From the IMG/VR virus record IMGVR_UViG_3300049737_000067, positions 1-20,041 of that record: a stretch of DNA of 20,041 bases, one strand, 5' to 3'. Shown piece after piece: positions 8,642 to 16,851 of this stretch. Under the pieces are notes generated by a model. It was not told the DNA's origin and ran no database searches. It was given only the letters and a program-made list of their open reading frames with translations. The position numbers and the translations under genes are program-made. Source of the stretch: a virus. The first letter of the stretch is position 1; every line of letters starts with the position of its first letter.

Positions 8642-9766
8642 TTATATCTCCGCTGCTACCATTATATAGCCGTTTGAGTCATTTATTCTTACTTCGTGGC
8701 AACCACCTGATGTCATACCACTCATTCCTGTTAAAGCCAATCTCATTTGTCTTTCATCACCTGCTTGTAAAGAAGCACCTGAAGCATTTGACCATGCGCC
8801 GGCAGTACCAGTTAAACCTTGTATATGACTAGCATCCGATATAGTAGCAGATGGTACAACTCTTTTTTCTGTTGCAAAATTAATTCTACCAAAAATACTT
8901 GAACCACTTGTACCTTGACCTATACAAATAACTGTTTCTGTTGATGATTTATCAATTCTTTCTAGGTACCTTTGACATCTTCTTAAACTGATATCAAATG
9001 GTATTTGTTCAAAATCTGTAGCAGTATTACCTATTTCAAATTGGTAACCTGTAATTTCTATAGTAGCATTATTAGTGGTTGAAAATGCATTACTTAAACC
9101 ACCTGCTCTTTTAGTTGCGTCAGAATCCCAAGCACCTCCTGTAGTAGAACCTGAACTTGAAAAGCTTGTGCCTGCAGCTGTCCAAATACTAACTTCCATT
9201 CCGTTATCGTTTGATGTTAAATCAAAAGCGTCGGATGTATTTCCAGCAAAAGTTACTGATTTCTTTTCCCAAGTATCTGCTGATGAAACAGTAAATGATT
9301 GAGAATTATATTTACTATGTTCTCTATCCCATAACTCAGCTACAAATGTTCCTGTAACACTTGATTTAATCCAAAAAGATAAAGTTGTTTGTTCAGCTGA
9401 AGCAGTACCATAATTTAATGTTCTTAACATTTGTTTTTCTATTCTTTGACCGTATCTAATAATACCGGATGAACCAAGTGATGTTTCAGCTGCCAATGTT
9501 TTCCATTCTAAAGAATTTCTAAAACCTTGTCCTGCCGGTACATCTGTTGTTTGTGTTAAACTACACTCATAAGATGTTCTACCTTCAATTCTAAGGTTAA
9601 ATCTATCTACACCAGCTTGACCATTTGCCACATCAGCAGTAGCACTTGTTTTGGCACCCCATTGCGATATTCCCATGTCACCATTAATCATTAAATTTTT
9701 AAATGTAGGGTTAACACCTTGTTGATTAGAAAGTGAATTAGCAAAATTTCTTGTTATTATTCCCAT
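8642..9766 (-). CDS. Tail fibre / receptor-binding-type protein (374 aa)
   Basis: Near the N-terminus it carries NLMINGDMGISQWG (about 24-37), a strand known from many phage fibre and receptor-binding proteins in the form NxLxNGxMxVxQRG. A beta-rich, jelly-roll-like body follows (SFWIKSS, WEKKSVTFAG), then the typical ITGYQFEIGNTATDFEQIPF...LRRCQRYLER segment (about 240-271). The end (NDSNGYIMVAAEI) is a short C-terminal tip. The combination is characteristic of distal fibre domains that contact carbohydrate or host surface; that role is inferred from the family, with no substrate evident. The start is supported by AGGA 8 nt upstream, inside the end of the 601-residue fibre gene (4-nt gap). 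It sits in a fibre cassette between the gp7-position gene and gp8. Confidence 0.78.
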   Translation of the reverse strand: MGIITRNFANSLSNQQGVNPTFKNLMINGDMGISQWGAKTSATADVANGQAGVDRFNLRIEGRTSYECSLTQTTDVPAGQGFRNSLEWKTLAAETSLGSSGIIRYGQRIEKQMLRTLNYGTASAEQTTLSFWIKSSVTGTFVAELWDREHSKYNSQSFTVSSADTWEKKSVTFAGNTSDAFDLTSNDNGMEVSIWTAAGTSFSSSGSTTGGAWDSDATKRAGGLSNAFSTTNNATIEITGYQFEIGNTATDFEQIPFDISLRRCQRYLERIDKSSTETVICIGQGTSGSSIFGRINFATEKRVVPSATISDASHIQGLTGTAGAWSNASGASLQAGDERQMRLALTGMSGMTSGGCHEVRINDSNGYIMVAAEI

Positions 9767-9770
9767 ATTT

Positions 9771-11576
9771 TTATCCTATGTACCTAACCACAATCTCTGC
9801 TCCGTTTGCCGGCGCCGTTGCGAAAGTTAATGTCGTGCCTGAAATTGTATAATCATCTGTTGGTACTAAACAAATACCATTTACAAAAACAAGTAATTCA
9901 TCAACATTTTTATCTGCTAATATTGTTATTGTTGTATCTGAACCATCACCTGTATTTGTTTTGTCAGTTGTTATGTTTAATCTTGATTGTCTACCTGTAG
10001 GTATATCTAGTGAATGACCCATGTAAGAATGAGCAGAGCATTCATAAAATAAAGGAGTTGGTGTTGCGCCTGTAACAGTAATTGTTGTGTGAGCGCCTGC
10101 TGAACCTGGTGTACCTGAAGTTACTACATTGGTAGTATATGCTCTTGTTTTATCTCTATCAAAATAAAATAATAAAGGGTGTCCTGAGTTTGTACCATCT
10201 GCTTGGTCAAATTTATAAACACCTTTTGATAAAGTAAGATGTGGACTTTCGTGTCCATCAATTTTATAACCACTTGATGAACCATCTCCATACTCACTAT
10301 GTTCGGTAGTTTTTGTTGCAACTGTAACTGTTAATGTTGTTGTTACTGTTGCGTCTGGTGAACGGTGAGATAAGTAACCAATATCGTGAATATCATTACC
10401 TTGTGCGTCCAAATCTCCGCCAAGTTGAGGTGTAGTGTCAGCTACAACACTTGCAATACCGCCGCCTTCATTACCTGGGTCAAATCTTCCACCAGCAGAA
10501 TTCCATTTTAAAACTTGGCCATCTGATATACTTGCAACAGAACCTACATTTCCTAAAAGTGAAATAGAATCACCTTCTTGTAATAATCTTTGCCAACCAC
10601 CTGCGTCTGCTACATATGGTACATTACCACCAATATCATACGCAAACATACCTTCGTAAGTTGCGGCTGTTGGTAAGGCACCTGTGTTTGCAAAGTTAAA
10701 TCTTAATTTGTTACCTGAACCTGTTGTATCTACTGTACCTGTACCTGATAAACTTGATGTACCTGAAATGCTAAAGTTTGAAGCTGAAGCCGCTGTGGCA
10801 CCTAGAACAACCGAAGTTGCACCTAAAGTAACTGATGAGTTTGCTAATTTAGAATTTGCTATAGCAGCACTAGATTTAATATCAGCATCCACAATGTTTG
10901 TAATTGTGTTATTGTCTGAATCAATTGTTTTATTTGTCAATGTATCAGTTGTTGCCTTACCTACTAAAGTATCAGCAGCGGCAGGTAATGTTACTGTGAC
11001 ATCACCAGTAGCAGCTGGTCCTATTAATGTGACTTTGTTTGTGCCATTATCTGAATCTTCAAAGAACTCTAAGAAACCTGCACTAGTAGCCCCATTCTTT
11101 AACTGTATTCCAGCGTTTGCGATAGGTGTTGTAAGTGTTGGTGTTGTTAAAACTTTATTTGTAAGTGTTTCTGAACCTGTTAATGAAACAAAACTATCAC
11201 CTTGTAAAGCTGTATTGAATTCTGCTAATGTACCTGTTAATGTGTTAGCGTCAAGGTCAATTGTTTTATTTGTAAGAGTAGATGTTTGAGAGGCGGAAAG
11301 AACTGTACCGTCAACTGCTAATGTTAAATTATTACCTGATATTGTAGATGAAATACCAGTACCACCTAGAATTTTAAATACTTCACCATTTGCTGAAACT
11401 ATTGTTTCTGTCGAACTATCATCATGGATTTTAATAGTACCATTTACTGTAGTACCGTCACCAATAGCTGTATAGATTTCGGTAAAGTTTAAATTAACTT
11501 TATTAGCACCATCACGGAGATTATCACCTGTTCCGTCATTTGCTGTGGATCCTCGATTTATTGTAAGTTTTGCCAT
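9771..11576 (-). CDS. Tail-fibre-type structural protein with cupredoxin-like domain (601 aa)
   Basis: The N-terminus carries DGTGDNLRDGANKVNLNFTEIY (14-35), a motif frequent at the start of marine myovirus fibre proteins, followed by fibre repeats with TLTNKTID/TNKVL units (about 100-235). Residues about 415-525 look like a cupredoxin: KGVYKFDQ, then SGHPLLFYF with His466, then a strand ending in FYECSAHSYMGH with Cys513, His516 and Met519. This His...Cys-x2-His-x2-Met pattern equals the type 1 copper ligand set of amicyanin. The last 45 residues form a module (LLVFVNGICLVP...TISGTTLTFATAPANGAEI) common in phage fibres and repeated in the 2097-residue protein. A perfect late promoter precedes it, and AGG lies 6 nt before the ATG. 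Copper binding is inferred and untested; the domain may keep only the fold. Confidence 0.82.
   Translation of the reverse strand: MAKLTINRGSTANDGTGDNLRDGANKVNLNFTEIYTAIGDGTTVNGTIKIHDDSSTETIVSANGEVFKILGGTGISSTISGNNLTLAVDGTVLSASQTSTLTNKTIDLDANTLTGTLAEFNTALQGDSFVSLTGSETLTNKVLTTPTLTTPIANAGIQLKNGATSAGFLEFFEDSDNGTNKVTLIGPAATGDVTVTLPAAADTLVGKATTDTLTNKTIDSDNNTITNIVDADIKSSAAIANSKLANSSVTLGATSVVLGATAASASNFSISGTSSLSGTGTVDTTGSGNKLRFNFANTGALPTAATYEGMFAYDIGGNVPYVADAGGWQRLLQEGDSISLLGNVGSVASISDGQVLKWNSAGGRFDPGNEGGGIASVVADTTPQLGGDLDAQGNDIHDIGYLSHRSPDATVTTTLTVTVATKTTEHSEYGDGSSSGYKIDGHESPHLTLSKGVYKFDQADGTNSGHPLLFYFDRDKTRAYTTNVVTSGTPGSAGAHTTITVTGATPTPLFYECSAHSYMGHSLDIPTGRQSRLNITTDKTNTGDGSDTTITILADKNVDELLVFVNGICLVPTDDYTISGTTLTFATAPANGAEIVVRYIG
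10921..10937 (-). repeat. 17-nt direct repeat encoding TNKTID, copy 1
   Basis: The sequence TCAATTGTTTTATTTGT (plus strand) is identical to bases 11257-11273. Both lie in the same frame of the 601-residue fibre gene and encode the TNKTID fibre repeat. The DNA identity suggests a recent duplication or conversion of fibre repeat units. Confidence 0.8.
11257..11273 (-). repeat. 17-nt direct repeat encoding TNKTID, copy 2
   Basis: Second identical copy of the 17-nt unit at 10921-10937, again encoding TNKTID. A diverged third unit (TNKVL) lies between them near 11145-11165. Confidence 0.8.
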
Positions 11577-16548: not shown

Positions 16549-16851
16549 CTAACCGTTTGCGAAAACATTACTAGAACCAGTAGTTAAAGCGCCAGCGTCT
16601 GTACTGTCACCTATTCTAGCGACTTTTAAACTATGAACAAATACATTTGGCGAACCAACATTTACATTTGCTACATGTGGCGGACACGCCGGTACAGGCG
16701 GGTGTATATGTGATACTGTTGGGTCTGTTATTCTTGCAACTAATATACTATTTGCAAATACACTACCTTGACCGGGTGTGTCAAGTGTAGTTGTAGCTAC
16801 ACAAGCATGACCTGTTGTTGTAGTATCGCCTTTTCTACTAACGGCTGGCAT
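16549..16851 (-). CDS. PAAR-domain baseplate spike tip protein (gp5.4-like, 100 aa)
   Basis: PAAR proteins cap the central spike of contractile tails and sharpen it for membrane piercing, usually folding around one metal ion. The protein starts MPAVSRKGDTTTTGHACVA and shows three repeats of the form GS-x-x-VFANS-x-x-VAR-I-x-D (29-43, 66-82 and a short 92-100), the typical PAAR repeat. Candidate metal ligands are His15, Cys17, His48, His50, Cys56 and His59. T4 gp5.4 has a similar length (about 97). The start overlaps the end of the upstream 84-residue gene by 14 nt. Placement just upstream of gp25 and gp6 fits a baseplate hub/tip gene. The family is confident; the exact ligands are inferred. 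Confidence 0.92.
   Translation of the reverse strand: MPAVSRKGDTTTTGHACVATTTLDTPGQGSVFANSILVARITDPTVSHIHPPVPACPPHVANVNVGSPNVFVHSLKVARIGDSTDAGALTTGSSNVFANG

Follow-up and report, generated by a model that had tools for sequence, protein, structure and literature searches.

Does a phage tail fibre carry a metal centre of the kind known from type 1 copper proteins? The question is raised by a gene in a 20,041-base IMG/VR virus record, analysed here over its whole length (the window), which likely derives from a marine phage with SAR11 as its probable host. The initial annotation described a 601-residue fibre-type protein with His466 and Cys513-x2-His516-x2-Met519, placed these residues in a domain spanning residues about 415-525, and suggested a copper centre with a role in stability, redox sensing or host binding. 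The ORF and codons proved to be as described and the domain held, with slightly wider limits (about 411-526). The copper centre and its role are inferred only, in the absence of metal or functional data. We propose that residues 405-530 form a metallated, copper-type cupredoxin module on a baseplate fibre, a reading that we consider likely (probability about 0.75) and in which the identity of the metal and the function are inferences.

The fibre protein and its baseplate setting

Table 1. Position of the fibre gene, its modules and the putative ligand codons in the window.
Feature	Position	Strand	Description or basis
Fibre gene	9771..11576	minus	601 aa, T4 gp10-like baseplate/fibre protein with cupredoxin-like domain
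N-terminal baseplate-attachment module, residues 5-65	11382..11564	minus	PF07880 T4_gp9_10_N, E 2.4e-7, above cut-off
Cupredoxin-like domain, residues 405-530 (fold core about 411-526)	9987..10364	minus	conservation and AlphaFold2/Foldseek
His466, putative first ligand	10179..10181	minus	in SGHPL just before strand 4
Cys513, putative ligand	10038..10040	minus	end of strand 7
His516, putative ligand	10029..10031	minus	between strands 7 and 8
Met519, putative axial ligand	10020..10022	minus	before strand 8
C-terminal fibre segment, residues 526-601	9771..10001	minus	common segment following the cupredoxin-like domain

The fibre is baseplate-anchored, because its first 65 residues constitute a T4 gp9/gp10 N-terminal domain and this module also matches T4 gp10 structures (E 3e-6). 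Genes of the window match a T4-like baseplate module, encoding gp25, gp6, a gp7-like 875-aa protein, the fibre, gp8 and a 2097-aa DUF4815 protein. With both the N-terminal PF07880 domain and the baseplate gene order in place, the protein qualifies as T4 gp10-like. This likeness to T4 gp10/gp9 rests on the N-terminal 60 residues and on the position of the gene next to gp25, gp6, gp7-like and gp8 homologues, but it does not extend to the cupredoxin-like domain, for which no match was found in any PDB chain of T4 gp10. The domain is likely to have been placed in the distal half of the fibre as an insertion. A gp10-like N terminus is common to 36 of the 117 viral ORFs that bear the domain, and the C-terminal fibre segment is present in 49 of them.

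A nearly identical gene order is found in Pelagibacter phage Mosig, whose "putative tail fiber protein" contains a domain that is 73% identical to that of the window. Immediately after the cupredoxin-bearing gene, the window encodes a 374-aa fibre protein (8642-9766, minus strand), which Mosig does not have at this place; its locus there holds another protein together with a putative tail assembly chaperone. The window also encodes a PAAR-motif tip protein (16549-16851, minus strand; E 4.7e-7), another component of this baseplate that is likely to bind metal.

Fold and homology of the domain

AlphaFold2 predicted a single compact domain with an eight-strand beta sandwich. A first model, built with 34 viral sequences, reached a pLDDT of 93 and a pTM of 0.86, while a second, built with 60 diverse sequences, reached 98.2 and 0.90, with all five models similar in score. 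In cupredoxins, one His precedes strand 4, the Cys ends strand 7, and the second His and the Met lie before strand 8. The phage domain shares with amicyanin, pseudoazurin, plastocyanin and rusticyanin (PF00127 and relatives) both the eight-strand sandwich and the order of the ligands relative to the strands, and the type 1 set His, Cys, His, Met is present in canonical order and loops. Its Cys-x2-His-x2-Met loop has the same length as that of amicyanin, as had been claimed. No distances were measured in the models; that the four residues cluster in space is inferred from their strand positions and from profile alignment onto plastocyanin/amicyanin-type ligands.

In Foldseek searches of the PDB, both models retrieved rusticyanin as the top match, followed by multicopper oxidases, nitrite reductases and amicyanin. 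All 21 best matches of the second model and the top nine of the first have the cupredoxin fold; Ig-like sandwiches appeared lower in the list, and factor V/VIII and SufI were among the fold matches. The matches were weak, with E-values between 0.002 and 0.2 overall, between 0.004 and 0.16 for the 21 best of the second model, and none below 0.001, and TM-scores were mostly 0.4-0.5 (about 0.45; 0.43-0.56 for the second model), pointing to a distant relative. A Greek-key sandwich of seven to eight strands that matches solved cupredoxins is thus predicted, as a distant match. The cupredoxin-like fold proposed in the initial annotation is supported, although these model-based matches are suggestive and not conclusive.

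Taken alone, the window domain matched no Pfam or NCBIfam family, including no Pfam cupredoxin family, and direct sequence searches of the PDB with the single domain or the protein returned no cupredoxin. When a profile of the 60-sequence family was searched against 177,635 PDB sequences, the top two matches were a pseudoazurin (E 0.043) and a protein of the multicopper-oxidase/copper nitrite reductase type (E 0.055), each weak taken singly. We also performed profile-profile comparisons with PF00127 proteins gathered from cyanobacteria and archaea, using reversed targets and 40 column shuffles as controls. The close-family profile of the window domain matched a Prochlorococcus protein with 92% probability (E 6e-7, 79 columns), a broader viral profile matched the same PF00127 protein with 95% (E 7e-8), and the family profile with cellular members included matched plastocyanin and archaeal cupredoxins with 86% (E 5e-6), the ligands being in register. 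For all three links, reversed targets and all 40 shuffles scored far lower. Against plastocyanins alone, the viral profiles were weak (9% and 2%, and in the 2% case two of the 40 shuffles equalled the real score), and the link to cupredoxins therefore passes through intermediates. The Prochlorococcus protein is 134 aa long, has a signal-peptide-like start and scores above the PF00127 cut-off. With HPFYIKT and Cys-x2-His-x4-Met, it was the closest cellular bridge that we found from plastocyanins to the phage domain.

The curated cut-off of PF00127 (Copper-bind) was not met by the family itself: the window domain had no match, and its cellular relatives reached only E 0.07-0.2. The best Pfam relative was PF25489 (At5g54830-like), a family named for a plant protein and without copper-binding annotation, which was matched by 24 of the 60 members at E 0.5 or better (best 2.8e-7). 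A Marinifilum lipoprotein exceeded the curated cut-off of PF25489, whereas the window domain did not match, and a search for PF25489 in cyanobacterial genomes found none. The relatives from Marinifilum and marine archaea are lipoprotein-like and carry the domain at the C terminus; in the archaeal proteins, a collagen-like Gly-x-x linker precedes it. Inspection by eye of the genes neighbouring these relatives revealed no recognisable copper pathway gene. Based on the computed fold and profile links, we regard homology of residues 405-530 to cupredoxins as very likely.

Conservation and spread of the putative site

His466, Cys513, His516 and Met519 were invariant in all 34 close viral relatives, and among copies outside the search pattern Y[QE]C[ST][AS]HxxMG, 47 of 48 scorable ones kept the His, Cys, His and Met. 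Since the patterns of some scans contained the Cys-His-Met loop, we also performed an unbiased scan in which the query alignment stopped before His466. Here, the His and the Cys-x2-His-x2-Met loop were intact in 75 of 76 distinct viral copies, the sole exception having Cys-x4-His-x2-Met, and the His-to-Cys spacing was 47 in 73 of the 75 intact copies. Plastocyanin has the same spacing (H37, C84). In the 60-sequence alignment, from which a few fragmentary or degenerate copies lacking the His or Cys had been left out, mean column identity was 45% and the invariant columns were Phe456, His466, Cys513, His516, Met519 and Gly520. The expectation that the ligands would be conserved in homologues was therefore strongly borne out.

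The whole 601-aa protein contains only two Cys, three Met (one being the start) and ten His (51, 397, 404, 426, 442, 446, 466, 496, 516 and 521). Because these residues are scarce, amino acid composition does not account for a Cys-x2-His-x2-Met loop 47 residues past a conserved His. An iron site of the His-x-His type was rejected for the window fibre, in which none of the ten His lies in such a motif. An internal disulfide as a general rule was likewise rejected, with 159 of 169 copies having a single Cys per domain.

Further information came from degenerate copies. In the gp7-like proteins of the cyanophages Syn33, S-RIM2, S-RIM8 and S-BM1, one copy retains the FNQDDxSN strand, while Ser replaces the Cys and the second His and the Met are gone; the first His is still present in two of the four. 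The same ORFs bear an intact YYYCxxHxxM or similar loop elsewhere, so that the domain occurs more than once in one giant baseplate protein. A repeat in a SAR86 protein has lost the first His, the Cys and the second His together. Loss of the ligands as a set, with the fold motif retained, implies that these residues share a joint function, for which metal binding is the obvious candidate. The four gp7-like phages are related, and their degenerate copies possibly reflect one event. They offer a natural comparison of putatively metal-binding and metal-free versions of one module.

The initial annotation had also raised the possibility of a wide distribution of the domain among structural proteins of marine phages, and this held. 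The family representative has matches in at least 204 public phage records, almost all of marine origin, from phages of Synechococcus, Prochlorococcus, Pelagibacter and Methylophilales and from uncultured marine phages; part of these matches span the first half of the domain only. The records are named tail fiber, baseplate wedge subunit, virion structural protein or hypothetical protein, and in PHROGs the domain falls in several tail and baseplate families. The SAR11 myophage HTVC008M of Pelagibacter, unlike Mosig, is not among the matching records, and the module is thus not universal. Below E 0.001, Foldseek against a viral protein structure library gave 57 matches, among them "beta-sandwich" proteins of giant viruses; the matches were mainly unannotated phage and giant-virus relatives and are informative on spread, not on function. 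Searches of the open-access literature for cupredoxin or plastocyanin-like together with tail fiber returned no paper, and those for cupredoxin together with virion or cyanophage returned none of relevance. The cupredoxin family itself is classic; in the literature searched, its occurrence as a virion module that has the site intact is undescribed.

A proposed metal site on the virion and competing explanations

We infer, without a metal measurement, that the site likely binds a metal in the finished virion. Copper is, on balance, our favoured candidate for the natural metal, again by inference, while a role of the module in contact with the host surface, although part of our working model, is a tentative inference that we rate somewhat below even odds. 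In our working model, synthesis and assembly of the fibre would take place in the cytoplasm, which offers little free copper, and the site would be filled after lysis, outside the cytoplasm, most likely with copper, or with zinc first. Copper uptake outside the cytoplasm is suggested by the free-standing cellular relatives that we examined (lipoproteins or signal-peptide proteins), which are exported. With metal bound, the module on the baseplate exterior would be locked in a stable, rigid state; in azurin, metal binding is known to have a stiffening effect. The locked module would then serve as part of the cell-contact surface, which is plausible because the fibre that bears it is an external part of the baseplate. 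If T4 gp10 is taken as a guide (three chains, six wedges), a virion may carry about 18 sites.

Several points speak against this reading: no metal has been measured, the fold matches are distant, no Pfam cupredoxin family is matched, and the protein folds in the cytoplasm. In contrast to type 1 copper proteins, the phage domain is a distant relative built into a fibre and not exported, and its metal is unproven. In addition, the residue following the first His is Pro in the window domain, as opposed to the usual Asn of cupredoxins; in multicopper oxidases, too, a type 1 site with His-Pro is known.

The alternative that survives best is a purely structural clamp, in which Zn(II) or Cu(I) would be held without any redox or recognition role. 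This is possible, and a clamp using only zinc is not excluded. Zinc is easier to obtain than copper in the cytoplasm, in which the protein folds; Zn can enter type 1 sites produced in bacteria, as established for azurin; and other baseplate metal binders exist, the PAAR tip protein of the window likely among them. Against it, the invariant axial Met is typical of copper sites and not of structural zinc sites.

In a second alternative, which we consider unlikely, the copper centre would bait or dock with metal receptors or electron-transfer proteins of the host, as a copper counterpart to the iron Trojan horse proposed for tail fibres. It is supported by the iron precedent, namely the HxH motifs of T4 gp37 and the proposal for an Alteromonas phage fibre (PMC11705849), and by the presence of the domain on an external fibre module and in several baseplate proteins. 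However, no receptor is known, and the occurrence of the domain in phages of Prochlorococcus, Synechococcus, SAR11 and Methylophilales as well as in cellular lipoproteins argues against one specific receptor.

It is also doubtful that the domain is a cupredoxin-derived adhesion or spacer module without metal, in which the ligand residues would be kept for folding or assembly. Cupredoxin-fold domains that lack metal or a type 1 site do exist (such as the factor V/VIII and SufI matches), and there are no metal data for the phage domain. Yet in the degenerate gp7 copies the fold motif persists although Cys, His and Met are gone, whereas nearly all other copies keep all four residues, and a lone conserved Cys, two His and a Met have no obvious non-metal reason. 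Finally, a chance motif in an unrelated beta sandwich, which the Foldseek E-values above 0.001 and low TM-scores would allow, is all but excluded by the near-invariance of the site in 60 diverse sequences and in the unbiased scan, and by the shuffle-controlled profile link to a PF00127 member.

A bolder extension of our preferred reading, possible at best, is that copper centres are a common component of the baseplates and fibres of marine tailed phages. The cupredoxin would have been captured from exported cellular proteins, would take up copper in seawater once the host cell has lysed, and would serve in attachment or as a trigger at the cell surface, with virions carrying dissolved copper. 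If the module is metallated, type 1 copper centres are part of the virions that infect some of the ocean's most abundant bacteria, a virion property that is readily measurable by metal content, colour and EPR. The domain, now listed in the matching records under structural or hypothetical names, would gain a functional label.

Metallation would also extend the iron chemistry of phage tails to copper. In T4 gp37, HxH motifs bind iron, and the same has been proposed for Alteromonas phage R22Y (PMC11705849). The window domain would share with these fibre tips the placement of metal ions on a tail fibre, which in the present case is inferred; the tips differ in fold, in their paired-His octahedral ligands and in their metal, iron (PMC11705849). 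A phage-borne cupredoxin is also known in the plastocyanin (petE) auxiliary gene of cyanophages. Its product, unlike the window domain, is not part of the virion but a free, soluble protein that carries electrons for the infected cell.

Away from the baseplate genes, the window encodes two iron-dependent oxygenases, an Asp/Asn beta-hydroxylase (PF05118; 18353-19021, minus strand) and, beside it, a 2OG-Fe(II) oxygenase (PF13640; 19076-19621, plus strand). The pair adjoins tRNA-Arg(tct) and tRNA-Leu(taa), and similar genes are present in Mosig.
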